Part shown: positions 4,896 through 19,999 of the stretch, piece by piece
Position numbering within the stretch: position 1 is the first letter of the stretch
How the letters are laid out: each line of letters starts with the position of its first letter
Assembly (NCBI GenBank): GCA_025935675.1
Contig: JAICUU010000010.1
Coordinates: 1-34,193, forward strand
From: Burkholderiales bacterium
GTDB lineage: Bacteria > Pseudomonadota > Gammaproteobacteria > Burkholderiales > Casimicrobiaceae
Length of the DNA stretch: 34,193 nucleotides
Direction of reading: 5' to 3'
The notes under the pieces: model-generated
What the model saw: the letters and a program-made list of their open reading frames with translations, nothing else
Told to the model about the DNA's origin: nothing
Database searches by the model: none
Made by a program: the position numbers and the translations under genes

Positions 4896-4908
4896 TGATG
4901 CACCGGCG

Positions 4909-5331
4909 ATGCTGAAGCAGGCCGCGACGACGATCGTCGTCGACACGCGTGGCCTCGGCCTCGTCGAGATCACGCCGCGCGTGCGCGACTGGCTCGCGGC
5001 GCAGCCGATCCGCGACGGCGTGCTCACCGCATTCTGTCGCCATACCTCGGCGTCGCTGCTGATCCAGGAGAACGCCGCGCCGGCCGTGCTCGAGGACACC
5101 GCGGCGTTCTTCGCCCGCCTCGCGCCCGAGAGCGACACGGCCTACGCGCACGACGACGAAGGTCCGGACGATATGCCCGCGCACCTGCGCATGGCGCTCA
5201 CCGGCGTCAGCATGTCGATTCCCCTCGCCGGCGGCGCGCTTGCCTTGGGCACCTGGCAAGGCCTTTTCGTGTTCGAGCACCGCCGCCGGCCGCACCGCCG
5301 CGAGATCGCGCTTGCGCTGATCGGCGCCTGA
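4909..5331 (+). CDS. yjbQ: YjbQ family protein (UPF0047)
   Basis: The 140-residue protein carries all signature blocks of the YjbQ/UPF0047 family: FCRHTSASLLIQENA (42-56), HDDEGPDDMPAHLR (81-94) and GTWQGLFVFEHR (114-125). The family forms a trimeric cytoplasmic fold. Its E. coli member shows weak thiamine-phosphate-synthase activity, hence the common name secondary thiamine-phosphate synthase, but the physiological role is not settled. Length is normal. It is the last gene of the run from 2390; the next gene is on the other strand. Confidence 0.96.
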   Translation: MLKQAATTIVVDTRGLGLVEITPRVRDWLAAQPIRDGVLTAFCRHTSASLLIQENAAPAVLEDTAAFFARLAPESDTAYAHDDEGPDDMPAHLRMALTGVSMSIPLAGGALALGTWQGLFVFEHRRRPHRREIALALIGA

Positions 5332-5496
5332 CGCTCGCCCAATCGCTTTGGAATGTCCAACGCCGTTGCGAGCAACGCCGATGCGACGGGCCGGCAGCTG
5401 AACCGGCGCGTCGAGGCGGTGATCCCGGACGCGTACGGCGGGATGCCGCCGCAGCCGGGTTGGTCGTCAGTGCGTGTTGATCGCCGGTCGGCCGGG

Positions 5497-6036
5497 TCAG
5501 CGCTTCGCGGCCGACCACTTCCGAAGCGCGGCGAGCGTGTTGGCGACGTGGCGGTCGGGGTCGAGCGAGGTGTACTCGTAGAGGATGCGGCCGTTGGGCG
5601 CGATCACGTACGACGTGCGGTTCGCGTATTTCGGCGCGAGCTTTAGCACCGCGTCGTAGGCCTTCATGATGTGCTGGTCCTCGTCGGCGGCGACCGCGAA
5701 CTTGCTGCGGCACTCGCTCACCGAGAAGCGGTTGAGTTTCTCGATGCCGTCGTGCGACACGCCGATCACCGTCGCGCCGAGCTTGTGGTATTCATCGGTG
5801 GCGTCTGCGAAATCGTGCGCCTCGATCGTGCAGCCTTCGGTGAACGCCGCCGGGTAGAAATACAGCACGACCGGGCCCTTCTTGAGCGCGTCGGCCAGCG
5901 AGAAGGCGAACACCTTGCCGCCGAGTGACGCCTGCGCGGTGAAGTCGGGCGCCAGGTCGCCGGCCTTCAGCGCCGCGGTCGAGGGCATCGCGCCCGTCGC
6001 GAGCACCAGCGCCGCGGTCATCGTCAGCCATTTCAT
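5497..6036 (-). CDS. Exported peroxiredoxin of the Bcp/PrxQ type
   Basis: The 179-residue protein has a signal peptide (1-21, ATGAMPSTA) and an AhpC/TSA thioredoxin fold. The peroxidatic motif P62-x3-T66-x2-C69 (YPAAFTEGCT) is intact. PrxQ/Bcp enzymes often have the resolving cysteine five residues after the first; here that position is not Cys. The only other cysteine is C109 in SVSECRSKFAVA, which could serve as an alternative resolving residue. It should reduce hydrogen or organic peroxides in the periplasm, with an unknown reductant. A GAGGAG ribosome site seven bases before the ATG fixes the start. The gene is convergent with yjbQ and divergent from the transporter gene. Confidence 0.93.
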   Translation of the reverse strand: MKWLTMTAALVLATGAMPSTAALKAGDLAPDFTAQASLGGKVFAFSLADALKKGPVVLYFYPAAFTEGCTIEAHDFADATDEYHKLGATVIGVSHDGIEKLNRFSVSECRSKFAVAADEDQHIMKAYDAVLKLAPKYANRTSYVIAPNGRILYEYTSLDPDRHVANTLAALRKWSAAKR

Positions 6037-6167
6037 GTAGGACTCCTCGTCGGGTGCCGCGGGCCGTTGTCGCGGCGGTGTCCGCGCGAACAGGCTCGGG
6101 GCGACATTGATTCCACTATGCCGAACGGTGCCGCCGCACGCAATGCCCGTGTTCGCGAGCCGGTTGC

Positions 6168-6180
6168 TACACTTCGCGCG
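6168..6180 (+). promoter_or_regulatory. Possible -10 element directly before the transporter start
   Basis: TACACT at 6168-6173 ends six bases before the GTG at 6180, placing a typical transcription start at or next to the start codon. No good -35 box is seen 16-18 bases further up and no Shine-Dalgarno is visible, so a leaderless message is possible but unproven. Confidence 0.3.
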
Positions 6181-7055
6181 TGCGCCTCGTCCTGTTCACC
6201 GCGCTGGCGATGCTGGCATTCGCCGGCAACTCGCTCTTGTGCCGCCATGCGCTCACGGCGACGGCGATCGACCCCGCCAGCTTCGCGACGCTGCGCATCG
6301 TCTCGGGCGCGATCGCGCTATTGCTCATCGTCGGGCTGCGCGATCGGGCGTTGCCGCGCGCCGGCTCGTGGACGTCGGCGCTCGCGCTCGCCGTGTACGC
6401 GATCGCGTTCTCGTTCGCCTACGCCTCGCTGACCGCCGCGACCGGCGCCCTGGTCCTGTTCGGCGCCGTGCAGGTGACGATGATCGCGTACGGGCGATGG
6501 CGCGGCGAGCGCTTCAGCGCGCCGCAGGCCATCGGCTTCGTGGTCGCGCTCGCCGGTCTCGTCGGGCTGATGCTGCCAGGCCTCGCCGCCCCGCCGCTCA
6601 CCGCCAGTGCGTTGATGATCGCGGCCGGCATCGCCTGGGGCGCGTACACGGTACTCGGCAAGGGCGCCGGCGAGCCGCTCGCCGTCAACGCCGGCAACTT
6701 CGCGCGCGCCGCCGCGTTCGCCGCGCTGGCAAGCCTCGCGACGATCTCGCATCTCGATCTCGATCGAGCCGGCGTCGTCGACGCCGTCCTGTCCGGCGCA
6801 CTGACCTCGGGCGTGGGCTACGCGATCTGGTACGCGGCGCTGCGCGACCTCGACGTGACGCGTGCCGCCGTGTCGCAGTTGAGCGTGCCCGTGATCGCGG
6901 CGCTCGGCGGCATCGCACTGCTCGGCGAGGCGCCGACGCTGCGGCTTGCGCTCGCGTCGGTCGCCATCCTCGGCGGCATCGCGCTGGTCGTCGTGCCGCG
7001 GCGCGCGCAACTCGCGCCGCCGCGGCCTGACGGCGATCAGACGGTCCCGATGTAG
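6180..7055 (+). CDS. DMT-superfamily transporter (EamA domains)
   Basis: The 291-residue inner membrane protein has about ten hydrophobic helices in two EamA halves. The first starts LFTALAMLAFAGNSLLCRHAL and the second around LMIAAGIAWGAYTVLGKGAG. The second half ends with the common VSQLSVPVIAALGGIALLGE pattern near residues 230-250. By family it exports a small metabolite such as an amino acid, but the substrate cannot be told from sequence. The GTG start is chosen because translation there gives the usual short cytoplasmic N-terminus before helix 1. Its 3' end overlaps the convergent DUF1993 gene by 19 bases. Confidence 0.93.
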   Translation: MRLVLFTALAMLAFAGNSLLCRHALTATAIDPASFATLRIVSGAIALLLIVGLRDRALPRAGSWTSALALAVYAIAFSFAYASLTAATGALVLFGAVQVTMIAYGRWRGERFSAPQAIGFVVALAGLVGLMLPGLAAPPLTASALMIAAGIAWGAYTVLGKGAGEPLAVNAGNFARAAAFAALASLATISHLDLDRAGVVDAVLSGALTSGVGYAIWYAALRDLDVTRAAVSQLSVPVIAALGGIALLGEAPTLRLALASVAILGGIALVVVPRRAQLAPPRPDGDQTVPM

Positions 7056-7543
7056 TCGCGCTTGCCGACGTCGACCCCGTTGTGACGCAGGATGTCGTAC
7101 GCGGTGGTGACGTGGAAGTAGAAGTTCGGGATCGAGCGGCCGAGCAGGAACGTCATGCCCTTGTAGGGCGTGTCCTTGCCGCCGACCTTGATGACCAGCT
7201 CCTTGTCCTCGCTGCCGTCGATCTGCGCGGGCTTCAGCGTCTCGAGGAACTTCACCGTCTTGTCGATGCGCGCCTTGAGGTCGGCGATCGTCTTCTCGTC
7301 GTCCTCGAACGCCGGGATGGGGATGCCGGCGAGCCGCGCGGCGGCGCCCTTGGCGGCGTCGCAGGCGATCTGCACCTGCGCGGTCAGCGGCAGCATGTCG
7401 GGATAGAGCCGCGCGTTGGGAAGCACCGACGGGTCGAGCTTCTTCTGCTCAGCGTACGCTTCCGCCTTGTCGAAGATCTTCGAGAGGTTGCCCAGCGTGT
7501 GGATGAAGCGCGGAACGCTCACCTGGTACATCGAGATGGCCAT
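7037..7543 (-). CDS. DUF1993 family protein
   Basis: The 168-residue cytoplasmic protein matches the DUF1993 family: N-terminal SMYQVSVPRFIHTLGNLSKIFDKAEAYA, then LPNARLYPDMLPLTAQVQIA around residues 41-60, and the C-terminal IPNFYFHVTTAYDILRHNGVDVGKRDYIG. The predicted all-alpha four-helix bundle with conserved His in FHVTTAYDILRHNG resembles DinB/YfiT-type metal-dependent folds, but no activity is known. It is convergent with the EamA gene, overlapping by 19 bases, and is preceded by the membrane-protein gene in the same direction, 68 bases away. Confidence 0.92.
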   Translation of the reverse strand: MAISMYQVSVPRFIHTLGNLSKIFDKAEAYAEQKKLDPSVLPNARLYPDMLPLTAQVQIACDAAKGAAARLAGIPIPAFEDDEKTIADLKARIDKTVKFLETLKPAQIDGSEDKELVIKVGGKDTPYKGMTFLLGRSIPNFYFHVTTAYDILRHNGVDVGKRDYIGTV

Positions 7544-7611
7544 GGATTATCCGAAGGAGGTGGAAGTGGGCGCGCGGCAGGCGAGATTGCCCTTCCACCC
7601 GCGCGCGCCGG

Positions 7612-8358
7612 TCATTTTACGCGCCGGGCGTCGCGACGCGTCGCGGCGCCTGCGGGTGCATCGGCATCCTCCGCGCCACCGGGCATCGCCCGCAGGAAGC
7701 GATCGGGCGCGATTTCCGCGAAGATCGTCACCGCGACGTACACGACGACGAACGCGAACGGCGCGTAATGCCCGAACAGCCGGCCGATCCCGGTGTAGAC
7801 GACCGCGAGGACCGCAATCCAGCGCAGGAACGTGAGCGCAAAGCGGCGCTTGATGCGCAGCGTCTCGAGGGTCGCGCCCGCGCCGAGCGCGCGGCGCAGG
7901 CCGATGTAGGTCCACAGCGCGAACGCCGCCTGGATCGCCGCGCCGACGTAGAACGAGCGGTCGCCGAGCGTCGCCTTGATCGTGCCCATGTCGCCGTTCG
8001 CCATGAACACGAGCGGCACGCCCAGCGGAATGGCGATGAACGCGGCGATGAAGATGCCCGCACCGATGAAGCCCGCCTCGCTGTTGGCGCGCCCCGCGAC
8101 GCTGTCCCTGTCGACGAACGTCAGGCCGCAGGCGACGACGGCGCACAGTGCCGCGAGCACCATCATCGTGTCGACGAAATAGAGTGCCAGCACGTTGAAC
8201 GCCTTCCAGCCGAAGACGAGAATGCCGACGATCGGCACGGCGTTGCGCACGACGACCTGGGCGATGGCGATGGGCTCGATCGCTGTCGCCGCGATGGCTG
8301 GCGACGCGCTCGCGCGGCTCGTCGACGGCGACGACACGCGCTGCTGGTGCTCCGACAT
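7612..8358 (-). CDS. Multi-helix inner membrane protein of unknown function
   Basis: The 248-residue protein has about six hydrophobic segments: roughly 30-55 (IAQVVVRNAVPIVGILVFGW), 58-80, 95-120, 136-155, 175-195 and 197-215. A Ser/Thr/Ala-rich cytoplasmic N-terminus and a basic C-terminus (RRDARRVK) flank them. The GWKAFNVLALYF and ALWTYIGLRRALG stretches resemble the loosely defined DUF6498-type membrane proteins, but this is a weak recognition. GGAGG four to five bases before the ATG supports the start. It lies 114 bases downstream of the DNA ligase gene in the same direction. Confidence 0.82.
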   Translation of the reverse strand: MSEHQQRVSSPSTSRASASPAIAATAIEPIAIAQVVVRNAVPIVGILVFGWKAFNVLALYFVDTMMVLAALCAVVACGLTFVDRDSVAGRANSEAGFIGAGIFIAAFIAIPLGVPLVFMANGDMGTIKATLGDRSFYVGAAIQAAFALWTYIGLRRALGAGATLETLRIKRRFALTFLRWIAVLAVVYTGIGRLFGHYAPFAFVVVYVAVTIFAEIAPDRFLRAMPGGAEDADAPAGAATRRDARRVK

Positions 8359-8472
8359 GAGGCCTCCCCGACCCTGTGTGCCGGCGATGCCGGCGCTCGC
8401 GCGCGGCGTCGCGCGCGCCGATCCGGATCACGGCCGCCGGCGCATGGCCGCGCCCGGCGGTGCACGCGCATC

Positions 8473-10101
8473 CTACTCCCAGCCGCCCGGCAACAGCGAG
8501 GCCAGCGTATCGAGCGTATCGGCCTCGTCGACCGGCTTGTCGATCCGCCAGCGCAGGATGCGCGGAAAGCGCACGGCGATGCCGGACTTGTGGCGCGGCG
8601 AGCGCTGGATCGCCTCGAAACCGAGCTCGAACACCAGCGTCGGCGTCACGCTGCGCACGGGCCCGAACTTCTCGACGGTCGTGCGCCGCACGATCGCGTC
8701 GACCTTGGCGATCTCGTCGTCGGTGAGGCCCGAGTACGCCTTGGCGAACGGCACGAGCCGCCGCCCCTCGGCGTCGTCCGCCCACACCGCGAACGTGTAG
8801 TCGGTATAGAGGCTCGCGCGCCGGCCGTGGCCGCGCTGCGCGTAGACGAGCACCGCATCGACCGTCATCGGGTCGATCTTCCATTTCCACCACGCGCCGT
8901 CGGCCTTGGTGCGGCCGACGCCGTAGCGCGCGTCGCGGCGCTTCAGCATGAAGCCCTCGACGCCGCGCGCACGCGATTCCTCGCGCAGCGCCGCGTAGGC
9001 GTCCCACGACGGCCGCTCGACGAGAAGCGAGAGCTCGAGCGCCGGATGATCGACGCCGGTCACCAACGCTTCCAGCGCCGCGCGACGCTCGACCTGCGGA
9101 CGCGCGCGCTGGTCGACGCCGTCCGCCTCGAGGAGGTCGTACGCAACGAGCGCCACCGGACGTTCGGCGAGGAATTTCGGCGTCAGGTTCTTGCGGCCGA
9201 TGCGCGTCTGCAGCTCCGCGAACGGCTGCACGCGGCCGTCGCGCCAGACGACGACCTCGCCGTCGATCACCGTGCCGCGCGGCAGCGCGAGCCCCAGCGC
9301 GTGCAGCTCCGGAAATCGATCCGTGACGAGATCCTCACCGCGCGACCACAGCCACGCCTCGCCGTCGCGCGCGACGAGCTGCGCGCGAATGCCGTCCCAC
9401 TTCCATTCGACCAGCCAATCGGCGGTATCGCCGAGCGACGCGGGCGGCGCGTTGAGCTGCTGCGCGAGGAAGAACGGATAGGGGTGGCCGGGATTGGCGA
9501 GTGCCGTCGCATCCTCCGGGGCGACCAGCGCCGCGAACGCCTCGGCGTCGGGCGCCGCCGCGAGGTGCGTGTAGCCGATCAGGCGTTGCGCGACGGTCTT
9601 GGCGTCGATGCCGGCATGCGCCGCCAGCGCGCGCGTGACGAGGAGCTTCGACACACCGACGCGAAAGCCGCCGCCGATGAGCTTCATCACGAGGAAGCGG
9701 CCGCTCCAGTCGAGCGTGTCCCAGTAATCGAACAGGCGCGCGCGCACGACCGCGGGATCGGCGCCGCGCAGCGCGGCGAGGCGCTGCACCCACTCGGCGA
9801 GGCCGATGTCCGATTCGTGCGCCGGCGGCGGCAGCACGTGCGCGACGGTCTCCGCGAAATCGCCGACCGCCTGGTAACACTCCTCGAAGAGCCACGGTGG
9901 CAGTCCGGACGCCTCGATCGCGCATTCGCGCAGCAGCCGCGACGGCACCGCCTGGCGCGGACGGCCGCCGGCGAGGAAGTACGTCGCCCACGCGGCGTCC
10001 GCGGGCGCCGCCGCCGCGTAGTAGCGCGCCAGCGCGTCGAGCTTGCCGGTGGTCGACGTCGTCGCGTCGAGCCCGACGTATAGCCGCGCGAACGCCTTCA
10101 C
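8473..10101 (-). CDS. ATP-dependent DNA ligase of the ligase-associated damage-response type
   Basis: The 542-residue enzyme seals nicks in DNA using ATP. Residues 1-200 are the N-terminal ligase DNA-binding domain. The adenylation domain follows, with motif I K234-W-D-G-I-R (lysine nucleophile), motif III around VALVAYDLL (316-324), motif IV VEGFMLKRR (381-389) and motif V WWKWK (404-408). An OB-fold completes the protein, ending in the RFPRILRWRIDKP motif VI region. The start is a GTG overlapping the TGA of the upstream exonuclease gene (GTGA, 4 bases), so the two are translationally coupled. This pairing matches the bacterial cluster of ligase, exonuclease, Lhr-type helicase and phosphoesterase; the last two are not adjacent here. 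Confidence 0.96.
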   Translation of the reverse strand: MKAFARLYVGLDATTSTTGKLDALARYYAAAAPADAAWATYFLAGGRPRQAVPSRLLRECAIEASGLPPWLFEECYQAVGDFAETVAHVLPPPAHESDIGLAEWVQRLAALRGADPAVVRARLFDYWDTLDWSGRFLVMKLIGGGFRVGVSKLLVTRALAAHAGIDAKTVAQRLIGYTHLAAAPDAEAFAALVAPEDATALANPGHPYPFFLAQQLNAPPASLGDTADWLVEWKWDGIRAQLVARDGEAWLWSRGEDLVTDRFPELHALGLALPRGTVIDGEVVVWRDGRVQPFAELQTRIGRKNLTPKFLAERPVALVAYDLLEADGVDQRARPQVERRAALEALVTGVDHPALELSLLVERPSWDAYAALREESRARGVEGFMLKRRDARYGVGRTKADGAWWKWKIDPMTVDAVLVYAQRGHGRRASLYTDYTFAVWADDAEGRRLVPFAKAYSGLTDDEIAKVDAIVRRTTVEKFGPVRSVTPTLVFELGFEAIQRSPRHKSGIAVRFPRILRWRIDKPVDEADTLDTLASLLPGGWE

Positions 10102-11117
10102 GCGCCCGCCTCCGCGGCGTCCTCGTCGTATTCGGTCGCGAACGACGACGCCTCGAGACCGCGCTCGGCGAGCCAGCGCACCATCACCGGCACGTTGCCG
10201 TGCGTGACGATCACGCGCGATGCGCCGGTCGACTCGATCGCGGCGTTGAGGCCCGGCCAGTCGGCATGGTCGGAGAGCACGAAGCCGCGGTCGAGCGCGC
10301 GCCGCCGCCGTGCGCCGCGCAGGCGCATCCATCCCGACGCGAACGCGTCGCTGACGTCGCCGAATCGCCTGAGCCACGGCGTGCCGGCGGCGGACGGCGG
10401 CGCCAGCACCAGCGCATGCCGTAGCGACGCCGGGTCGACGTCGTCGACACGCAGCGTCGCCGGCAATCCGACGTTCGAGCGCCGGTACGCGTCGTTCAGC
10501 ACCTCGACGGCGCCGTGGCAGACGATCGGCCCGACGTCGGTCGCGCCGGCTGCCGCGAGGCCGGCGAGAATGCGCTGGGCCTTGCCGAAGGCGTAGGCGT
10601 ACACGAGGCTCACGCGCGATGCCGCGGCGTTGCCGCGCCACCACTGCGCGATGTCGGCGAACACCTCGGCGGGCGGCGTCCAGCGATAGATCGGCAACCC
10701 GAACGTCGACTCGGTGATGAACGTGTCACAGCGCACCGGCTCGAACGGCACGCAGGTCGGGTCGGCGTCGGTCTTGTAGTCGCCCGACGCGACCCACACC
10801 TCGCCGCCGCGCGCGATGCGCACCTGCGCCGAGCCGAGCACGTGGCCCGCCGGATGCAGCGAAACGTCGACGTCGCCGATGCGGATCGACTCGCCATAGG
10901 CGAGCGTCGCGAGGTCGATGTCGCCCAAGCGCGTGCGCAGCACCGCCTCGCTCGCCGTAGTCGCGATGTAGCGCTGCGAGCCGGGTCGCGCGTGGTCGCC
11001 GTGCGCGTGCGTGATCACCGCGCGCGTCACCGGCCGCCACGGATCGATGTGGAAATCGCCGGCCGGGCAGTACAGCCCTTCGGGCCGCGCGACGACGAGG
11101 TCGGCGCGCGCGCTCAT
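10098..11117 (-). CDS. Ligase-associated DNA exonuclease (metallo-beta-lactamase fold)
   Basis: The 339-residue protein has the metallo-beta-lactamase metal motif H37-A-H39-G-D41-H42 (VITHAHGDHARPG), a second ligand region in LHPAGHVLGSAQV (about 87-99), GDYKTDADPT (about 112-121), and a C-terminal beta-CASP-like part ending FVLSDHADWPGL and VIVTHGNV. These are the marks of the exonuclease found next to ATP-dependent ligases in the ligase-associated DNA damage response set, related to SNM1/CPSF nucleases. It presumably trims DNA ends before ligation. Its stop overlaps the ligase GTG. It follows the methyltransferase gene by 34 bases. Confidence 0.95.
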   Translation of the reverse strand: MSARADLVVARPEGLYCPAGDFHIDPWRPVTRAVITHAHGDHARPGSQRYIATTASEAVLRTRLGDIDLATLAYGESIRIGDVDVSLHPAGHVLGSAQVRIARGGEVWVASGDYKTDADPTCVPFEPVRCDTFITESTFGLPIYRWTPPAEVFADIAQWWRGNAAASRVSLVYAYAFGKAQRILAGLAAAGATDVGPIVCHGAVEVLNDAYRRSNVGLPATLRVDDVDPASLRHALVLAPPSAAGTPWLRRFGDVSDAFASGWMRLRGARRRRALDRGFVLSDHADWPGLNAAIESTGASRVIVTHGNVPVMVRWLAERGLEASSFATEYDEDAAEAGA

Positions 11118-11790: not shown

Positions 11791-11860
11791 CGTGTGGCGA
11801 GTGTGCCACGGGCGGATGCGCTTGCCTTTGACGGTGGCGCTACCCGGCGCCTCCCCCGCC

Positions 11861-11998
11861 GTCATCCCCGCGAAGGCGGGGATCCAGCCTTGACGTTGCG
11901 GCGGGGCGATCGCGCGCTCCTGGTTGCTGCGCCAGAGCTGGATTCCCGCATGCGCGGGAATGACGAAGCGCTGCATCCCCGCCTTCGCGGGGATGACG
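11861..11998. repeat. REPIN-like element, copy 1 (with extra half unit)
   Basis: A left arm beginning GTCATCCCCGCG (11861) and a right arm ending CGCGGGAATGACG (11965) are inverted copies around a spacer, about 105 bp in all. A third palindromic half unit follows directly and ends at GGGGATGACG (11998). Each arm is itself a small hairpin. The element lies between the sulfatase stop and the methyltransferase start. Confidence 0.85.
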
Positions 11999-12038
11999 GC
12001 GGGTCGAGACGCGGCGGGTTGGGGCGACTGTCCGACCG

Positions 12039-13670
12039 TTACGCGTCCTCGATCGAGTAGAAGCGACGTTCGAATCCCTTGGCGCGCATCACCTTGATCA
12101 CTTCGTCCCGGTCCAGCACGCCGCAGCGCGCGGCCCACGCGTCCCAGGCCTTCGCCATCGCGGCGACGCGCGCAGGCTCGCGCGCGGCGAGGTCGTGGAG
12201 CTCCGTGCGGTCGGCTTCCATGTCGTAGAGCTCCCAGTCGCCCGGGTGCTTGCGCACGAGCTTCCATGGGCCATCGCGCATCGCGCAGTTGCCCTCGTGC
12301 TCCCAGAACATCGGGCCACGCACCACGCCGTCCTCGGTGAACGCCGGCTTGAGCGAGCGCCCTTCGAGCGGCAGCACGTCGCGACCGGGAAACTGCGACG
12401 GATACTGCGCGCCGCAGATGTCGCACAGCGTCGCCATGATGTCCGGCAGGTATCCCGGGTTGTGGCGGATCTCGTTGCGCGCCGCGATGCCCTTCGGCCA
12501 ATGGAAGATCAGCGGCGTCGAGATGCCGCCCTCGTGCACCCAGTGCTTGTAGAGGCGAAACGGCGTGTTCGACAGGTTCGCCCAGGCGACGCCATAGCTC
12601 TGGTAGGTGTCCTCCGGCCCCGGCATGATCGAGGCGTCGTTGCCGAAGCGCACCGGCCGGCCGTCGCGCGTGCGGTTGCGCGCGATGCCGAGCTTGTCGC
12701 TCAACAAGCCCTGCGGCAGGTTGTCCGGGATGTCCTCGGCGCATGCGCCGTTGTCGGCGAGGAACACGATCAGCGTGTCGTCGGCGATACCGTTGCGCTC
12801 GAGCGCGGCGAGGATGCGGCCGATGCCCTGGTCCATGCGGTCGATCTGCGCGGCGTACACCTCCATGCAGCGCGCGAGCCACGCCTTGTCGTCGGCGCCC
12901 GACCATGGCGGCTGCGTCGGATCGCGCGGTGAGAGCTGCCACTGCTTGTCGAGGATGCCCGAGCGCACCAGCCGCTCGAGGCGCTTCTCGCGCAGCGTGT
13001 CCCAGCCCTCGTCGAAGCGGCCCTTGTACCTGGCGATGTCCTCGTCGCGCGCGTGCAGCGGCCAGTGGGGTGCGGTAAAGCCGACGTAGGTGAAGAACGG
13101 CTTGTCGCCATGGTCGCGCATGTGCGTGTCGATGTAGTCGACCGCCTGGCTCGTGATCGCGTCCGTGTAGAAGAACGACGGGTCTTCCTTCGGCTCGTGC
13201 TCGATGTTGTCGTTGCCGCGCGTCAGCGTGTTGGGGTCGTAGAAGCTGCCGGCGCCGATGATCGTGCCGTAGAACGCGTCGAAGCCGCGCTGCAGCGGCC
13301 ACGAGTCGCTCGGCTCGGTGATGCTCGACGTCACGTGCCACTTGCCGCTGAGATACGTGCGGTAGCCGGCGGTCTTCAGCACCTCGGCGATCGTCACGCA
13401 GCGCTTGTTGAGGTTGCCCGCGTAGGCCTCCGGCCCCGTGGGCTCGGTGAGGATGCCGATTCCCGTCTGATGCGGATGCAGGCCGGTGAGTAGCGACGCC
13501 CGCGACGGGCTGCAGCGCGCGGTGTTGTAGAACTGCGAGAAGCGCAGCCCCCCGGCGGCGAGCCGGTCGAGGTTGGGCGTTCGCACCTCGCCGCCATAGC
13601 AGCCGAGGTCGGAATAGCCCATGTCGTCGTTGAGGATCAGGAGAACGTTCGGCTTGTTTTGCGTGGTCAT
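12039..13670 (-). CDS. Type I (formylglycine) sulfatase, cytoplasmic
   Basis: The 543-residue enzyme hydrolyses sulfate esters. The N-terminus PNVLLILNDDMGYSDLGCYG gives the calcium-binding aspartates D15 and D16. C53-S-P-S-R (ARCSPSRASLLTG) is the sulfatase signature in which Cys becomes formylglycine. Further active-site residues are K110 and H112 in LSGKWH, and FLADNGA in the C-terminal half. There is no signal peptide, so the sulfate ester is presumably cleaved inside the cell. No formylglycine-generating enzyme or anaerobic maturase is in the window. The start lies 31 bases after the ATPase gene's stop, making it the last gene of the importer operon. The natural substrate is unknown. Confidence 0.95.
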   Translation of the reverse strand: MTTQNKPNVLLILNDDMGYSDLGCYGGEVRTPNLDRLAAGGLRFSQFYNTARCSPSRASLLTGLHPHQTGIGILTEPTGPEAYAGNLNKRCVTIAEVLKTAGYRTYLSGKWHVTSSITEPSDSWPLQRGFDAFYGTIIGAGSFYDPNTLTRGNDNIEHEPKEDPSFFYTDAITSQAVDYIDTHMRDHGDKPFFTYVGFTAPHWPLHARDEDIARYKGRFDEGWDTLREKRLERLVRSGILDKQWQLSPRDPTQPPWSGADDKAWLARCMEVYAAQIDRMDQGIGRILAALERNGIADDTLIVFLADNGACAEDIPDNLPQGLLSDKLGIARNRTRDGRPVRFGNDASIMPGPEDTYQSYGVAWANLSNTPFRLYKHWVHEGGISTPLIFHWPKGIAARNEIRHNPGYLPDIMATLCDICGAQYPSQFPGRDVLPLEGRSLKPAFTEDGVVRGPMFWEHEGNCAMRDGPWKLVRKHPGDWELYDMEADRTELHDLAAREPARVAAMAKAWDAWAARCGVLDRDEVIKVMRAKGFERRFYSIEDA

Positions 13671-13701
13671 TGTCGTCGGGCGTCAGGGTGGAGGGCGCGC
13701 G

Positions 13702-14790
13702 TCAAAGGCGCGCGCCCGTGGTGCGATCGAAGAGGTGCGCGCTGCCGGGCGCGAAGCCGAGCGTGACGTCGTCGCCGTCGCGCACCACGGTGCGGTCGGT
13801 CTTCTGCTTGACGAGCGCGCCGGCCGCCCGGTAGCTGAGGACGGCCGTGTCGCCGAGATCCTCGACGCGCTCGACGTGCGCCGGCAACCCGCCGTCGGCG
13901 ACGCGAACGTCGCCGGGGCGCACGCCGAGCGTCACGTCGCGCGGCGCAGCCGCGTGGGCGCCGACCGGGAACGCGTGGCCGGCGACGGTGACGGTGTCGC
14001 CCTGCCAGACGCCCTCGAGGAGGTTCATCGGCGGCGTGCCGATGAAGCCGGCGACGGCGCGCGTCTGCGGCGTCGCGAAAACCTCGCGCGGCGTGCCGAC
14101 CTGCACGATGCGGCCATCCATGAACACGGCGATGCGATCGGCGAGCGTCATCGCCTCTTCCTGGTCGTGCGTGACGTAGACGGTGGTGACGCCGAGGTTG
14201 CGCTGCAGCGAATGGAGCTCGAGGCGCGTCTCGAGCCGCAGCTTGGCGTCGAGGTTCGACAGCGGCTCGTCGAGCAGGAAGAGGCGCGGCTCGCGCACGA
14301 TCGCCCGCGCGAGCGCGCAGCGCTGCTGCTGGCCGCCCGAGAGCTGGCCCGGCGTGCGCGCGAGGAGATGCTGGATGCCGACCTTGGTCGCCACCGCCTC
14401 GACGGCGCGCGCGACCTCGGCGGCCGGCACCTTCACCATCCTGAGCGGGAAGCCGATGTTGGCGGCGACGCTCATGTGCGGATACAGCGCGTAGCTCTGG
14501 AACACCATCGCCACGTCGCGCTCGCCGGGCGGCGTCGTCGTGACGTCCTCCCCGTCCATCGTCACGCTTCCTGCGCTCACCGATTCGAGGCCGGCCAGGA
14601 TGCGCAGCGTCGTCGTCTTGCCGGAGCCGGACGGTCCCAGCAGCACGAAGAACTCGCCCGGCTCGATCGCCAAGTCGACGTCGTGCAGCACGGTGGTCGC
14701 GCCGTGGCGCTTGACGATGCCCTCGAGGCGGATGCTGCCGCGGCTCGCGTTGCCGGGGCGGCCCGTACGCGTCGTTGCGTCGGCGCTCAT
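13702..14790 (-). CDS. ABC importer ATPase, MalK/UgpC type
   Basis: The 362-residue protein energises the importer encoded upstream. It has Walker A GPSGSGKTT (52-60), Q-loop FQSYALYPHM (97-106), signature LSGGQ (150-154), Walker B FLLDEP (171-176) and the switch histidine H208 in YVTHDQEEAM. The C-terminal third (about 235-362) is the MalK-type regulatory OB/TOBE region with FIGTPPMNLLEG and TLGVRPGDV. The ATG overlaps the stop of the malG-like gene (ATGA, 4 bases), showing translational coupling. Length and domain order are typical of carbohydrate-uptake (CUT1) ATPases. Confidence 0.96.
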   Translation of the reverse strand: MSADATTRTGRPGNASRGSIRLEGIVKRHGATTVLHDVDLAIEPGEFFVLLGPSGSGKTTTLRILAGLESVSAGSVTMDGEDVTTTPPGERDVAMVFQSYALYPHMSVAANIGFPLRMVKVPAAEVARAVEAVATKVGIQHLLARTPGQLSGGQQQRCALARAIVREPRLFLLDEPLSNLDAKLRLETRLELHSLQRNLGVTTVYVTHDQEEAMTLADRIAVFMDGRIVQVGTPREVFATPQTRAVAGFIGTPPMNLLEGVWQGDTVTVAGHAFPVGAHAAAPRDVTLGVRPGDVRVADGGLPAHVERVEDLGDTAVLSYRAAGALVKQKTDRTVVRDGDDVTLGFAPGSAHLFDRTTGARL

Positions 14791-15635
14791 CGCCGCCCTC
14801 CACCCTTGACCGCGCCCACCGTCAGGCCCTTGACGATGTGGCGCTGCGCGAAGAGTCCGATCAGGATCACCGGCAGCATCGCGAGCGTCGCGCCCGCGGC
14901 GAGCCGCGCCCACTGCGTCTGCTCGACCGACATGAAGTTGAACATCGCGACCGTCACCGGCCGCACGCGGTTGCCGCCGATGACGACGGCGAACAGGAAC
15001 TCGTTCCACGTGTTGAGGAACACGAAGATCGTCGTGACGGCGATGCCGCCGCGCACCTGCGGCAGGATCACGTGCCACAGCGCGCCAAAGCGGCCCGCGC
15101 GGTCGAGCAGCGCCGCCTCCTCCATCTCGAGCGGCACGTCCTCGAAGTACGAGACCATCAGCCAGATCGCGAACGGCAGCGTCAGCGTGAGGTCGATCAG
15201 GATGAGGCCGAAGTACGTGTCGAGGCCGCCGACCCTCTGCAGCACGAGGTAGTACGGGATGATGAGGCCGACGGGCGGCAGCATCTGCGTGGCCAGCACG
15301 TAGAAGCCCGACGCACGCTTGGCCGGGTAGCGCAGTCGCGCAAGTGCATACGCCGCCGGCACCGCGAACACGACGGTGAAGAACGTCGCGCCGACCGCCA
15401 CGATGACGCTCGACCACAGGTTGGGGACGATCGACGTCGCGCCGAACAGCACGTCGTGGTAGTTGGCGAGCGTGGGCGTGAAGATCAGCGACGGCGGGTA
15501 CGCGAGCACGTCGCGCTCGGTCTTGAACGACGTCAGGAGCGCCCACAGCACCGGAAACGCCCAGATCGCGAGCGCGGCGCCCGTCAGGACCGGCACGGCG
15601 ATCGCGCGGATGGGATGCGGCTTGGCGACGATCAT
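14787..15635 (-). CDS. ABC importer permease, MalG type
   Basis: The 282-residue inner membrane protein has six hydrophobic helices and the EAA loop EEAALLDRAGRFGALWHVIL at 172-191, the contact for the ATPase. The N-terminal pattern AFPVLWALLTSFKTERDVL and the FLNTWNEFLFA stretch are typical of MalG-like permeases of CUT1 importers. The start codon is 37 bases after the malF-like stop, and its own stop overlaps the ATPase start. Confidence 0.95.
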   Translation of the reverse strand: MIVAKPHPIRAIAVPVLTGAALAIWAFPVLWALLTSFKTERDVLAYPPSLIFTPTLANYHDVLFGATSIVPNLWSSVIVAVGATFFTVVFAVPAAYALARLRYPAKRASGFYVLATQMLPPVGLIIPYYLVLQRVGGLDTYFGLILIDLTLTLPFAIWLMVSYFEDVPLEMEEAALLDRAGRFGALWHVILPQVRGGIAVTTIFVFLNTWNEFLFAVVIGGNRVRPVTVAMFNFMSVEQTQWARLAAGATLAMLPVILIGLFAQRHIVKGLTVGAVKGGGRR

Positions 15636-15672
15636 CGCGTCGTCCCCCGCCGTGTCGCCGGCGCGCGAGCGA

Positions 15673-16569
15673 TCAACGACGGCTCCTGCGCAGCCGGAAC
15701 ATCACGTACGAGATCGCCAGCGTGATCGCCATCAGCACGACGGCGAGCGACGCGCCGTAGCCGAGGTTGAGCTCGGAGAACGACGTGCGATAGGCGTACA
15801 GGTTGAGGATCTCGGTCGCCGATCCCGGGCCGCCGCCGGTGGCGGCGAAGATCGCCGCGAAAGCCGACAGCGCGGTCATCATCCGCAGGATGACGACAAC
15901 GACGATCGCCGGCCGCAGCAGCGGCAGCGTGATATGGCGGAACCGCTGCCACGCGCCGGCGCGGTCGAGGCGCGCAGCCTCGTAGATGTCGGGCGGCAGC
16001 GTCGCGAGGCTCGCGAGCAGCACGAGGAACGCGAACGGCGTCCACTGCCACGTGTGGATCGCGATCACCGAGATCAGCGCGAGCTGCGGATCGCCGAGCC
16101 AGTTGTGGCTGCCGAGCCCGAGCGTGCGCGTGACGAGGTCGACGAGCCCGACGTCCGGCGAGAGCACGAGCGTGCGCCAGAAGAGGCCGACAACGACCGG
16201 CGCCAGCACGATCGGCAGGATCGCCGCGACGCGCAGCAAGCCCTGCCCTTTGGGAATCTGCAGCACGAGGAGCGCGACACCGAGACCGAGCACGACCTGC
16301 GCGACGACGGTGGAGATCGTGTAGATCGCCGTCAGCCCGAGCGAATTCCAGAAGCGCGGGTCGCTCCCCATCTTCGCGTAGTTGCCGAGGCCCGCGAATC
16401 CCGACAGCCACGGCATGCCGAGGTCGAGGCGATGGAGGCTCGTCCACAACAGGTAGACGAGCGGCGCCGTCGTGGTGACGAGCAGCAGGACGAGCGCCGG
16501 CGCGACCAGCGTCAGCGCGAAGCGCCGCTCCTGCGCCTCGAACGAGCGCGCCGCCGCCCCTGTCGCCAT
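15673..16569 (-). CDS. ABC importer permease, MalF type
   Basis: The 298-residue inner membrane protein has about six hydrophobic helices. It begins with LTLVAPALVLLLVTTTAPLVY and carries the EAA loop YEAARLDRAGAWQRFRHITL at 196-215. PRFWNSLGLTAIYT near 71-84 is the common WxSLxNTxxY-type feature of MalF/UgpA permeases. It partners the MalG-type permease encoded next. A REPIN-like element fills the gap between it and the binding-protein gene upstream. Confidence 0.95.
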   Translation of the reverse strand: MATGAAARSFEAQERRFALTLVAPALVLLLVTTTAPLVYLLWTSLHRLDLGMPWLSGFAGLGNYAKMGSDPRFWNSLGLTAIYTISTVVAQVVLGLGVALLVLQIPKGQGLLRVAAILPIVLAPVVVGLFWRTLVLSPDVGLVDLVTRTLGLGSHNWLGDPQLALISVIAIHTWQWTPFAFLVLLASLATLPPDIYEAARLDRAGAWQRFRHITLPLLRPAIVVVVILRMMTALSAFAAIFAATGGGPGSATEILNLYAYRTSFSELNLGYGASLAVVLMAITLAISYVMFRLRRSRR

Positions 16570-16588
16570 TCGCTAGGCCCGCGGGCAC

Positions 16589-16691
16589 GTCATCCCCGCG
16601 CAAGCGGGGATCCAGACGTGACGCCGACGTGCATGTACCGCGTGTTCCACTCGAGCGTCAAGGCCGGATTCCCGCTTTCGCGGGAATGACG
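16589..16691. repeat. REPIN-like element, copy 2, inside the importer operon
   Basis: A 103-bp element: left arm from GTCATCCCCGCG (16589), right arm ending CGCGGGAATGACG (16691), with inner borders CCAGACGTGACG and CGTCAAGGC. It lies between the stop of the binding-protein gene (16709) and the start of the malF-like gene (16569), so it is transcribed within the operon and can fold into strong hairpins. Confidence 0.85.
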
Positions 16692-16708
16692 GATCGCCCT
16701 CCGCCACG

Positions 16709-18127
16709 TCAACCCTTGAGGATCTGCTGGATGCGCGCCTGCGCCTCGTCGAGCGCTTCCTTCGGCTTCTTCTGGCCGACGAGCGCGGCCTGGATCGCGG
16801 TCGCCATCGTGTCGCCGATGGCGGGCCACTGCGGCACGCGCGGGCGCCAGTCGACGTCGGTGTCCTGGTTGAGCGATTCGAGCACCGCGGGGATGAAATT
16901 GTCGCCCGCGTATTGCATCGCCGTGGCGAACTCGGGTGCGCGCACCAGCGACAGCCGGTTGACGCCGGACCGCTTGCCCGCCCCCGCGTATTTCCACGAG
17001 CCGCGGATCTGCGTCTCCGCGCAGCATGCCCAGGTGATGAACAGCCACGCCGCCTTCTTCTGCTTCGGCGACGCCGCGGCGTTGATCGGGAAGCCCCAGT
17101 TCCAGATCGACGTCACCCGCTTGCCCGACGGCCCCTTCGGCCAGCGCGCGTAGGCGATCTTGCCGATCACCTTGGACTTCTCGGGATTGGTGATCACGGT
17201 CGCCGACGAGCTCGCGTCGATGTAGCAGGGGATGTTGCCTTGCGAGAAGGCGTCGGCGATGTCCGGCCAGTTCCAGTTGCGCACCGCGGGCGGCGCGTAC
17301 TTCGTCAAGAGGTCGACGTACCAGGCGAGCGCGTCGACCGCCGGCTTGGAGTTGACGTCGACCTTGCCGCCCTCGATCCACGTGCCGCCGAAGCCGCGGA
17401 ACAGCGACGGGTAGATGTACATGTTCTGGCCGGCGCCCGCGAAGCCGCGCAGCGCGACGCCATAGGTGCGCGCGGACGCGTCGGTCAGCGCCTTCGCGTT
17501 GCTGACGAACTCGTCGTAGGTGTCGGCGGGCTTGAGGCCCTTCGCGGCGTACAGGTCCTTGCGGTAGACCTGGACCGTGACCTCGCCGTCGTACGGCATG
17601 CCGTAGAGCTTGCCGTTGATCGACGCCGAATCGCGCCAGGACTTGATGACGTCGTCGACGTTGAACCACGCGGCGTCGGTCAGCGTCTTGTCGTCGAGGT
17701 ACTGGTCGAGGTCGTCGACCCACTTGTTCGACGCGTACAGCGGGTAGTACATCGGGTCGGTCGCCGACGTCGCGTACGTCGCCGTCTTCGACGACAGGTC
17801 GAGCATCGCCTTCTGGCGGATCTGCCCCGGCGGGATCTTCTCGAAGCGCACCTTGATGCCGGTGAGCGCCTCGAACTGCGGGCCGAGCCCGATCAGGATG
17901 TCGAAGTAGCTCGCGGGGATGAGCGCGACGGTGATCGACTCGCCTTCCGCCTGGCGCCAGTTGATCTTCGCCGACTTGTACGCGCCGAGGTCGTCGGCCT
18001 GCGCGAACGCGGCGCCGGCCAAGCTCGAGCCGACGAGCCCGGCCGCGCCCATCGCAGCACCTTGCCGCAGGATCTCGCGACGACCCGGATTGCGCGGCCC
18101 GCGGCCGCCGAAGGAACGCTCACTCAT
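16709..18127 (-). CDS. Tat-exported ABC substrate-binding protein (sugar type)
   Basis: The 472-residue protein is the extracytoplasmic receptor of the importer. The N-terminus has a twin-arginine signal (R16-R17 in PGRREILRQG, hydrophobic 23-42, cleavage near AFA/QADD). The mature part fits the extracellular solute-binding family 1: ITVALIPASYFDILIGLGPQ, TGIKVRFEKIPP, YGMPYDGEVTVQVYRKDLY, and a C-terminal VRAPEFATAMQYA. Mature length suits carbohydrate binding. Tat rather than Sec export suggests folding before export. GGAGAGA a few bases before the ATG fixes the start. Ligand unknown; the downstream sulfatase suggests a sulfated compound (inference). Confidence 0.94.
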   Translation of the reverse strand: MSERSFGGRGPRNPGRREILRQGAAMGAAGLVGSSLAGAAFAQADDLGAYKSAKINWRQAEGESITVALIPASYFDILIGLGPQFEALTGIKVRFEKIPPGQIRQKAMLDLSSKTATYATSATDPMYYPLYASNKWVDDLDQYLDDKTLTDAAWFNVDDVIKSWRDSASINGKLYGMPYDGEVTVQVYRKDLYAAKGLKPADTYDEFVSNAKALTDASARTYGVALRGFAGAGQNMYIYPSLFRGFGGTWIEGGKVDVNSKPAVDALAWYVDLLTKYAPPAVRNWNWPDIADAFSQGNIPCYIDASSSATVITNPEKSKVIGKIAYARWPKGPSGKRVTSIWNWGFPINAAASPKQKKAAWLFITWACCAETQIRGSWKYAGAGKRSGVNRLSLVRAPEFATAMQYAGDNFIPAVLESLNQDTDVDWRPRVPQWPAIGDTMATAIQAALVGQKKPKEALDEAQARIQQILKG

Positions 18128-18229: not shown

Positions 18230-18243
18230 TGTATTCGATTACA
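18230..18243. promoter_or_regulatory. Candidate LacI-family operator
   Basis: TGTATTCGATTACA is a 14-base near-palindrome centred on CG; the half-sites TGTATTC and TGTAATC agree at six of seven bases. CG-centred palindromes of this type are usual LacI-family operators. It lies between the divergent binding-protein and lacI genes and covers the predicted transcription start of the binding-protein promoter, which fits repression. Confidence 0.6.
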
Positions 18244-18289: not shown

Positions 18290-18377
18290 ACCAGCTGGCG
18301 CCACTCGCCTCGACACGCTCGTGCAATCGAAATCATCGCGGGTACCACGACTGGCCGCGGGCACACGCCGGAACCCG

Positions 18378-19436
18378 GTGCGCCGCCGTGACGCGGGCGT
18401 GACGCGCCCGGGGGCGCGGCCGAGTGCCAAGGACGTCGCGCGCCTCGCCGGCGTGTCGACCGCGACGGTGTCGCGCGCGATCAACCTCCCCGACCGCGTC
18501 GATGCGAAGACGCGCGCGAGCGTCGACGACGCCGTCGCCAAGCTCGGCTACGTGCCGCACGGCGCGGCGCGCGCGCTGCGCAGCCGGCGCAGCCAGATGG
18601 TCGGCGCCGTCGTGCCGTCGGTCGACTACGCGCTCTACGCGCGCACGACAAGCGCGCTGCAGGCGGTGCTCGACGCCAAGGGCTACTCGCTGGTGCTGGC
18701 CGAGCAGCACTACGACCTCGACGCCGAGGTGCGCGTCACCGAGCAGCTGATCGGCCACGGCGTCGATGCGTTCGTGTTCGTCGGCCTGCATCACGATCCG
18801 CGCCTGTTCGCGCTGCTCGACGCCTACGGCCGGCCGTATGTGCTGACGTGGGGCGTCGACCCGATGCGTCGCCACCCGAGCATCGGCTTCGACAATCGCG
18901 CAGCGGCGTTCGCGGCGACGCGCCACCTGATCGACCTCGGTCATCGCCGCTTCGGCCTTTTGAGCGCGCATACCGCGGGCAACGACCGCTCGACCGAGCG
19001 CGGCCTTGGCATCCGCGCGGCGCTCGCGCAGGCGGGCCTCGCGCTCGACGAGCGCCACGCGCGCTACGGCGCGATCGACCTTGCGTCATCGCGGGCGATG
19101 ATGCACGAGCTCCTCGCACTGGGCGACCCGCCGACGGCGGTGGTGTCGACCAACGACGTGTTCGCGGTGGGCGGCATGCTCGCCTGCCGGGACCGCGGCG
19201 TGCGCATCCCCGACGACCTTTCGATCACCGGCATCGACAACACGGACCTTGGCGCGACGCAGACGCCGGGGCTCACGAGTGTCAGCACACCGATCGTCGA
19301 CATCGGCCGCGCCGCCGGCGAGCAGGTGATCGCGCGCCTCGAGAGCCGGCCGTACGTCGCGTTCCAGGAGCTGCCGTTCGCGCTGGTCGTGCGCGGCAGC
19401 ACGGCGCGGCCCGCGCGTCAGTCGCCGAAGCGATAG
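18378..19436 (+). CDS. LacI-family transcriptional regulator
   Basis: The protein is about 352 residues. The helix-turn-helix covers SAKDVARLAGVSTATVSRAI (16-35), followed by the hinge helix with the minor-groove leucine in AARALRSRR (L67). The rest is a periplasmic-binding-protein-like sensor domain (MVGAVVPSVDYALYARTTSA; DDLSITGIDNTDLG near the C-terminus), which binds a small effector. The start is uncertain: in-frame GTGs exist at 18321, 18378 and 18399. I chose 18378 for the GGAA just upstream; 18321 would add 19 residues. It probably represses the divergent importer-sulfatase operon, with the imported compound as inducer. Its end overlaps the sulfotransferase gene by 19 bases. Confidence 0.92.
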   Translation: MRRRDAGVTRPGARPSAKDVARLAGVSTATVSRAINLPDRVDAKTRASVDDAVAKLGYVPHGAARALRSRRSQMVGAVVPSVDYALYARTTSALQAVLDAKGYSLVLAEQHYDLDAEVRVTEQLIGHGVDAFVFVGLHHDPRLFALLDAYGRPYVLTWGVDPMRRHPSIGFDNRAAAFAATRHLIDLGHRRFGLLSAHTAGNDRSTERGLGIRAALAQAGLALDERHARYGAIDLASSRAMMHELLALGDPPTAVVSTNDVFAVGGMLACRDRGVRIPDDLSITGIDNTDLGATQTPGLTSVSTPIVDIGRAAGEQVIARLESRPYVAFQELPFALVVRGSTARPARQSPKR

Positions 19437-19999
19437 CCGAACGCGCGGATGTCGTCGGCGTAGACGCGCGCGACGATGTCCCGTGCCGCGTCGTCGTAGT
19501 ACTCGGTGTAGCGGCGATGCTCGCTCGCGAACACGTGCTGCAGCTCGACGCGCGGATGGCCGATGCGCTCGCACACCGCGTCGAAGTCGCGCTGCAGGTG
19601 CTCGTAGCGGCCGACGAAGTCGACGCCGATCCGGCCGCGCACCGCGAGCTTGCGGGATTGCGGCACCAGCGCGCCGGTCTCGAGCCAGCGCGCCTCGGCG
19701 GACAGCGGCACCCCGCGCTCGATCCGCCGCAGCATCTCCGCGAACTCGAAGTCGAAGAGCTTCTGGCGGTCGCGGCTCCAGTGATAGCGCGACACCAGCC
19801 AGTCCCAGGGATTGCGCACGAACGCGAACTTGAAGTAATCGCGGAACGCGCGGGGATATTCCTTGCGGTAGTCGGCGAGCGACGCGTGCTTGTGGCGTAC
19901 GTCGCGCGCGTCGGCCGTTGGCTCGAACACCTTCTCGATGCTGGTGCCGCCGGTCTTGTTGATGTGGACGAAGATGAAGCGGTAGCGTTCCGAGATCAT
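19418..19999 (-). CDS. Small sulfotransferase-family protein
   Basis: The 193-residue protein shows both PAPS-binding elements of carbohydrate-type sulfotransferases: the 5'-phosphosulfate loop HINKTGGTSIEKV (12-24) and the 3'-phosphate site FVRNPWDWLVSRY (60-72). By family it transfers sulfate from PAPS to a hydroxyl of a glycan or small molecule. It is short but complete for the Sulfotransfer_2 group. No signal peptide or membrane helix is seen. It lies tail-to-tail with the LacI gene (19-base overlap), close to the sulfatase operon but not in it. A functional link with the sulfatase is suggestive only. Confidence 0.9.
   Translation of the reverse strand: MISERYRFIFVHINKTGGTSIEKVFEPTADARDVRHKHASLADYRKEYPRAFRDYFKFAFVRNPWDWLVSRYHWSRDRQKLFDFEFAEMLRRIERGVPLSAEARWLETGALVPQSRKLAVRGRIGVDFVGRYEHLQRDFDAVCERIGHPRVELQHVFASEHRRYTEYYDDAARDIVARVYADDIRAFGYRFGD

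Follow-up and report, generated by a model that had tools for sequence, protein, structure and literature searches.

The stretch of DNA studied here (the window) comprises 34,193 nucleotides of contig JAICUU010000010.1 from a Burkholderiales bacterium of the family Casimicrobiaceae (assembly GCA_025935675.1). Five minus-strand genes between positions 12039 and 18127 encode a solute-binding protein (SBP), two permeases and an ATPase of an ATP-binding cassette (ABC) importer, and a formylglycine-type sulfatase (Table 1). All five are open and correctly placed and carry the expected domains, which bears out the unit of importer and signal-less sulfatase recognised in a preliminary description of this DNA. 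The coupled overlap reported there is present (the four bases ATGA at 14787-14790 hold the TGA stop of a permease gene and the ATG start of the ATPase gene), and the gaps are short between sulfatase and ATPase (31 bp) and between the permeases (37 bp), but not between permease and SBP (139 bp). The Tat export proposed for the SBP agrees with an RR-containing, Tat-like N-terminus, as judged by eye. A divergent LacI gene and its operator also form part of the unit, although the earlier account did not include them. The gene order is kept across many genera, hence the layout is not due to chance. The unit probably serves, under local regulation, the catabolism of a small alkyl sulfate ester, with glycerol monosulfate as the substrate that we infer to be most likely; the comparative evidence gives this reading a probability of roughly 0.55.

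Table 1. Features of the sulfatase operon in the window and of the glp-linked cassette on the Sulfitobacter faviae plasmid
Replicon	Feature	Positions	Strand	Basis
Window	Sulfatase, formylglycine-type (S1), 543 aa	12039..13670	-	PF00884, 203.9 bits (cut-off 25)
Window	MalK/UgpC-type ABC ATPase	13702..14790	-	ABC_tran, OB_MalK, TOBE_2 (scanned as 13702-14748)
Window	ABC permease, MalG-like	14787..15635	-	PF00528; NCBIfam MalG and GlcU below cut-off
Window	ABC permease, UgpA/MalF-like	15673..16569	-	PF00528; NCBIfam UgpA below cut-off
Window	SBP, CUT1 kind	16709..18127	-	PF01547
Window	Predicted LacI-type operator TGTAATCGAATACA, 5' of SBP gene	18230..18243	-	motif search
Window	Degenerate second operator-like site TGATTTCGATTGCA	18322..18335	-	9/12 by hand count
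Window	LacI/GalR-family regulator, divergent	18378..19436	+	PF00356, PF13377 (scanned from 18402); start from gene caller
S. faviae plasmid (L192)	glpD	4999-6558	same strand	open frame without entry in the incomplete plasmid gene table
S. faviae plasmid (L192)	glpK	6640-8118	same strand	
S. faviae plasmid (L192)	GntR	8198-8947	same strand	
S. faviae plasmid (L192)	Sulfatase	9001-10632	same strand	
S. faviae plasmid (L192)	Formylglycine-generating enzyme	13613-14566	same strand	

Relatives of the window sulfatase were collected by a scan of bacterial and archaeal genomes, which gave at least 80 loci, and by further genome searches. After removal of 13 duplicates from a second collection, 104 loci were counted and split at 64.5% identity to the window sulfatase into a clade of 72 loci and an outgroup of 32; L072 (64%) was counted outside the clade, though the tree groups it with L041 and L048. 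In the alignments (A1 and A2), most rows are trimmed to the tblastn match, not to the start codon. The clade occurs in Achromobacter, Bradyrhizobium, Variovorax, Xanthobacter, Paracoccus, Sulfitobacter and Paenibacillus, and the gene order is conserved in its Burkholderiales and Rhizobiales loci. The distribution is patchy: within the window's genus, 5 of 22 genomes have the sulfatase, and none of 42 others from its family does. Prevalences in the larger sets are lower bounds, at most 3-5 candidates having been scored per genome: at least 3 of 399 genomes sampled from the order, at least 15 of 268 from another family of this order, at least 18 of 296 from the family of the Xanthobacter genome and at least 1 of 394 from that of the Frigidibacter genome, the one being the centre genome itself. 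A search of plasmids returned 96 records with a sulfatase match, six of which were read; one record, H8 from Phaeobacter (46.7% identity), falls outside the clade.

The sulfatase domain begins at residue 5-7 of the window protein, leaving no room for a signal peptide. An upstream stop codon leaves at most 15 residues before the sulfatase match in 65 of the 72 clade loci and at most 25 in 67; longer open frames precede the match in L011, L012, L025, L043 and L171. The core C-x-P-x-R motif reads C53-S-P-S-R57, and D15, D16, C53, R57, K110, H112, H202, D306, N307 and K375 do not vary across an alignment of 24 sequences; we take these residues to be the catalytic set (metal and sulfate ligands) of Pseudomonas aeruginosa AtsA. 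The best solved relative by sequence and fold is 7all (2.6e-106, 35% identity), presumably BT4683 of Bacteroides thetaiotaomicron, the title of the PDB entry naming a mucin sulfatase study; if so, the nearest solved relative is an S1_4 enzyme. Second comes 1hdh, P. aeruginosa AtsA (E 8e-89 by sequence, 32% identity by fold match). The predicted model (predicted template modelling score, pTM, 0.85) confirms the fold, and the ligand is not identifiable from it. The protein is thus predicted to strip sulfate from an imported ester in the cytoplasm, the location following from the short N-terminus. Identification as choline sulfatase BetC was rejected (120.9 bits against a TIGR03417 cut-off of 433.45), as were the PehA and Mn-arylsulfatase identities, with scores far under the NCBIfam cut-offs.

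Sulfatases of this type are matured by a formylglycine-generating enzyme (FGE), whose absence from the genome, according to the preliminary description, would speak against its proposal. An FGE is present in the window genome (3.68 Mb in 410 contigs, 95.66% complete), on contig C241: it scores 274.5 bits with PF03781, has the FGE-type cysteine pair, KGGSYLCAPNYCRRYR, matches solved FGE at 1.4e-71 and is 41-45% identical to operon FGEs of relatives (twelve best rows). A second PF03781 place, on C135, matches in two pieces. PF00884 was found at nine places in this genome including the operon, the other eight lying on C264, C307, C207, C351, C121, C244 and C190, by our judgement unusually many for a genome of 3.7 Mb; hence the C241 enzyme need not be dedicated to the operon sulfatase. 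No FGE gene stands beside the window operon. In the clade, such a gene lies directly 3' of the sulfatase gene in 59 of the 69 loci with at least 1 kb of downstream sequence, and 62 of the 72 carry one anywhere within the locus. The operon-borne enzyme of L005 matches solved FGEs at 1e-103.

The importer has the parts of the CUT1 kind, namely an SBP_bac_1 binding protein, two BPD_transp_1 permeases and an ATPase with OB_MalK/TOBE domains. The top NCBIfam model of the ATPase, UgpC, gives 384.9 bits and does not reach its cut-off of 432, and no named CUT1 equivalog (Ugp, Mal, Glc) scores above cut-off among the matches listed (for the ATPase, the best 25 of 186). The closest solved relatives of the SBP are 5iai and 4rya, the latter named as a sorbitol-binding ABC protein. 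SmoF stands further down at 17-18% identity; it shares the CUT1-type SBP fold and its ligand is an organosulfur sugar derivative, but a sulfonate and not a sulfate ester. We know of no sulfatase in the sulfoquinovose import route to which SmoF belongs. The SBP model (pTM 0.74) confirms the fold, the ligand again not being identifiable from it, and the solved relatives do not decide the predicted ligand. In the plasmid collection, SBP matches (E up to 1e-60) were confined to one record, where they adjoin this sulfatase.

The importer is exchanged among relatives while the sulfatase is kept. An SBP homologue was found in 58 of the 72 clade loci, and in 55 of the 63 whose upstream sequence spans 5.6 kb or more. 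The eight remaining loci are L017, L037, L040, L041, L044, L045, L047 and L048; in all but L017 another importer lies near the sulfatase. The replacement is a tripartite ATP-independent periplasmic (TRAP) transporter in L044, L045 and four plasmid loci, a major facilitator superfamily (MFS) transporter in L037, L040, L041 and L048, and an upstream Dpp-type ABC importer in L047. By tblastn, the 32 outgroup loci contain neither an FGE of this type nor this SBP nor glpK. The conserved core, as far as sequence can tell, is an importer, a predicted cytoplasmic sulfatase and its maturase. The recurrence of sulfatase and importer across genera, the exchange of importers and the frequent FGE favour the mechanism put forward in the preliminary description, and it is very probable that an intact small sulfate ester is imported and desulfated inside the cell. 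In the Devosia locus L047, a metallophosphatase gene and a PF01663 phosphodiesterase-like gene (4625-5500 and 7607-8986) stand among the Dpp-type transport genes adjoining the sulfatase, as if a phosphodiester were also cleaved.

The substrate is suggested by glycerol genes. Within the operon or next to it, 13 of the 72 clade loci carry glpK and 12 carry glpD, compared with none of the 32 outgroup loci. When the 72 loci are grouped at 85% identity into 28 clusters, five lineages carry glpK, against 0.13 expected (Poisson, 3e-7); the chance expectation derives from seven genomes (31.3 Mb together) with eight GlpK above cut-off, uniform gene placement being assumed. On a maximum-likelihood tree of 105 sulfatases (quick search), the linkage needs five changes. 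The kinases exceed the curated cut-off of 590 bits (L016, 701; L006, 703; L042, 690; L010, 665; L037, 727; S. faviae plasmid, 683), and GlpD is over its cut-off of 360 in L010, L037 and S. faviae (726-760 bits). Three arrangements were found in the clade. The order sulfatase-FGE-glpK-glpD occurs in L014, L016, L018, L019 (where the contig ends in glpK), L141, L006, L042, L043 and L059, with glpK starting about 30 bp past the FGE match in one Alcaligenaceae-type group; glpD-glpK-SBP occurs in Xanthobacter L010 and two related genomes (L177, L178); and in L037, MFS-sulfatase-FGE is followed by glpD-glpK. In L042, a second sulfatase gene (14792-16210, PF00884) directly follows glpK-glpD and has cluster members in L043 and L059; in these three genomes, two or more sulfate esters may be desulfated and enter one common route.

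A sixth glp-linked case is plasmid NZ_CP116421 of Sulfitobacter faviae, which has a TRAP importer and the order glpD-glpK-GntR-sulfatase-DctP-DctQ-DctM-FGE on one strand. As predicted from its genes, this cassette holds every step from uptake to dihydroxyacetone phosphate (DHAP). Importer and glpK are joined in one place with the sulfatase, as a proposed glycerol-sulfate cassette, in the 13 clade loci and on this plasmid, and not in the window. The one GlpK over cut-off in the window genome is encoded on another contig, C387, beside genes that look sucCD-like by eye. A crude regular-expression search, run without a positive control, found no glycerol facilitator in the glp-linked loci.

Neighbouring families were compared in 49 loci (the first-scan loci and the window) representing 26 lineages, only some of the clusters being named by Pfam or NCBIfam. 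TctC receptors were found in eight lineages and glpK and glpD in five each; beyond these, the importer, FGE and the regulator, each family was found in at most two. Bradyrhizobium-type loci carry a GMC oxidoreductase (cluster 9, 11 loci, 2 lineages), a mandelate-racemase-like enzyme (cluster 11) and a chloride channel (cluster 18), the first two on the opposite strand. A DeoR/GlpR-like gene lies upstream in Bradyrhizobium L033, L034, L166 and L170 and in plasmid locus L196; it was not counted as support, because it is below the GlpR cut-off (238 in L033, cut-off 331) and may be part of an adjacent operon.

Several observations weigh against glycerol monosulfate. glpK was picked after the neighbours had been viewed, so the Poisson value is post hoc and a correction for a few thousand families leaves about 1e-3; moreover, two of the seven genomes behind the GlpK density are themselves glp-linked. 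TctC receptors (cluster 8, 12 loci) recur in more lineages than glpK (8 of 26); they are very numerous in Burkholderiales, and on this general knowledge only we take them as background. The GlpD of L014 (300) and L042 (261) score under the curated cut-off, and for that of L006 the identification comes only from its cluster and from Pfam DAO. Fifty-nine of the 72 clade loci, and the window, lack glpK in the stretch examined, many stretches ending within 9 kb. By tblastn, only one of five clade plasmid loci has GlpK; among the other four, that of Labrenzia carries a xylulokinase-like FGGY gene instead (L195, a 24% relative). In 10 of the 11 glp-linked genomes searched, which exclude those of L019 and L141, the linked GlpK (matched by coordinates) is the only one over cut-off, whereas Xanthobacter aminoxidans has two; the linked gene is therefore the general glycerol kinase located at this site and no dedicated extra copy, so that it serves the remaining glycerol use of the cell as well. 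Finally, the closest solved relatives of the SBP bind sugars or polyols, and Mycobacterium tuberculosis UgpB appears at rank 50 of the matches listed.

Most Burkholderiales loci have a LacI gene divergent from the operon, while Rhizobiales loci carry a GntR/UTRA gene between the ATPase and sulfatase genes. The window and 22 loci provide 23 divergent LacI-SBP intergenic regions, and all 23 contain the site TGYAANCGNTTRCA with at most one mismatch. In 200 dinucleotide shuffles, the mean was 0.045 such regions and the maximum 2, in a control that is partly circular since the pattern was derived from the same regions. After the pattern had been widened so as to include the window's own site, it had no exact match elsewhere in the 3.68 Mb genome. 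With one mismatch allowed, a reversed control pattern gave 39 and 37 matches in this genome against 10 and 8 for the real one, so only the exact match has weight. A sole exact operator fits a regulator of a single operon, and the LacI protein is likely its repressor. Many relatives have two better operator sites, roughly 90-130 bp apart. Local control by LacI or GntR suggests catabolism of the compound as a carbon source, and not a response to general sulfur starvation. The permease-SBP gap contains a REP-like palindromic element, which may shape differential expression of the SBP; such palindromes, CGTCATCCCCGCG..CGGGGATCCAG and GATTCCCGC..GCGGGAATGACG, were found at 16588-16697 in this gap and at 11855-12003, just 3' of the sulfatase gene.

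The following route can be proposed. LacI would repress the operon from the operator 5' of the SBP gene until released by the ester or its product. The SBP would capture the ester in the periplasm, and the CUT1 importer would bring it into the cell intact. FGE would convert the sulfatase cysteine to formylglycine, and the cytoplasmic sulfatase would then hydrolyse the ester to sulfate and glycerol. Glycerol would pass through GlpK and GlpD to DHAP, and sulfate would enter assimilation. In the window genome, FGE and GlpK would come from other contigs. Glycerol monosulfate is proposed as the substrate because of the recurrent glpK/glpD linkage; the monosaccharides, polyols and aryl compounds considered in the preliminary description can be narrowed by it towards polyols, and glycerol among them. 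The chances are about even that the operon represents a widespread, transporter-swapping glycerol sulfate route, in which ABC, TRAP or MFS import serves a dedicated clade of FGE-matured cytoplasmic sulfatases and GlpK/GlpD lead into glycolysis.

The same mechanism might act on another substrate, a sulfated sugar alcohol, tetrol or monosaccharide (e.g., an alditol sulfate), the glp genes being nearby as related polyols are handled together. The sorbitol-binding name of 4rya, one of the two nearest solved SBP relatives with 5iai, would agree with this, as would the loci without glpK, a set of SDR, DeoR/GlpR, FGGY and HAD genes 5' of the sulfatase gene in Labrenzia, and an SDR gene (PF00106) just 5' of the SBP gene in L029, with a cluster member in L031. 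However, by its curated cut-off GlpK is the kinase found repeatedly in independent lineages; when each of the 104 loci is represented by its best match, a single weak FGGY-like one other than GlpK appears (L023, 27% identity); and no metabolic neighbour family except TctC and glp was found in more than 2 of the 26 clade lineages. We consider such a substrate possible but rather unlikely.

The operon could also be a sulfur-scavenging unit, in which a broad sulfatase and an importer would serve to obtain sulfur from aryl or alkyl sulfates under sulfate starvation and the carbon moiety would be incidental. In favour of this, the sulfatase has P. aeruginosa AtsA as its second closest solved relative, and the accessible text on the Pseudomonas sulfate-ester cluster, atsACBR-sftR-atsK-sftP, describes an arylsulfatase paired with an ABC importer (PMC3596284). 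Against this, ats has an importer of the aliphatic-sulfonate type and a LysR regulator, whereas the importer here is CUT1 and the regulators are of the LacI (with a nearby operator in the window) or GntR types, and sulfur scavenging would have no use for glpK and glpD, which makes this explanation improbable. It is more improbable still that the cargo of the importer is an unsulfated polyol or sugar, the sulfatase being used separately and merely sharing the operon: 95 of the 96 plasmid records with a sulfatase match (most below 60% identity) lack an SBP match at 1e-60, but no plasmid SBP match, in the one record concerned, occurs without the sulfatase alongside, and seven of the eight loci lacking this ABC importer have another near the sulfatase.

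Part of the glycerol sulfate scheme has precedents. As in ats, an ABC importer is encoded with the sulfatase and the plan is to import the ester and then desulfate it. Unlike the present operon, ats has an aliphatic-sulfonate-type ABC importer, a LysR regulator, AtsK and a TonB receptor, so far as the available portion of the source details it (PMC3596284), whereas the relatives described here have a CUT1 importer with LacI or GntR, most of their operons also carrying FGE and several lineages glpK/glpD. Membership of the window operon in the ats system was rejected, since importer (CUT1) and regulator (LacI) differ. With 7all the window sulfatase shares the fold and the C-x-P-x-R class; the match starts at 7all chain residue 22, while the window protein lacks any N-terminal extension and is accompanied by an importer. 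BT4683 is described, in the portion of the paper at hand, as an S1_4 endo-acting 3S-Gal sulfatase that acts on intact mucin glycans via an open cleft (PMC10154612). Choline sulfatase BetC is likewise an S1 sulfatase and acts on a small alkyl sulfate ester, according to an excerpt of PMC5870055, but its operon neighbours differ from those found here.

The pairing of ABC importer and sulfatase and the action of S1 sulfatases on a small alkyl sulfate are thus already known from the accessible parts of these sources (PMC3596284, PMC5870055), and a glycerol sulfate sulfatase and its glpK link would be new relative to the literature searched. In that literature, which leaves most subscription journals outside, no paper pairs the exact phrase "glycerol sulfate" with "sulfatase", and no published glycerol sulfate sulfatase, glpK link or bacterial pathway of this kind was found. 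The portions seen of a cloud-water paper (PMC6529453) and a review (PMC3920027) contain nothing on this route. Glycerol sulfate isomers are reported in atmospheric particles in the available text of PMC12224290. If the proposed route is correct, a substrate would be assigned to a clade annotated only as "arylsulfatase" in seven plasmid records (H1-H7), a bacterial sink for small organosulfates would be added, and a small alkyl sulfate treated chiefly as an aerosol component in the papers searched would supply both carbon and sulfur to bacteria of soil, freshwater and marine habitats.

Two further features of the window were observed. A Sulfotransfer_2 gene (PF03567, 59.7 bits; 19418-19999, minus strand) ends within the 3' end of the LacI gene, so that a sulfotransferase-like gene neighbours the sulfatase operon. 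At 8473-11117 on the minus strand, an ATP-dependent DNA ligase gene overlaps a gene without Pfam match (10098-11117), the product of which resembles, by eye, a metallo-beta-lactamase-fold exonuclease.

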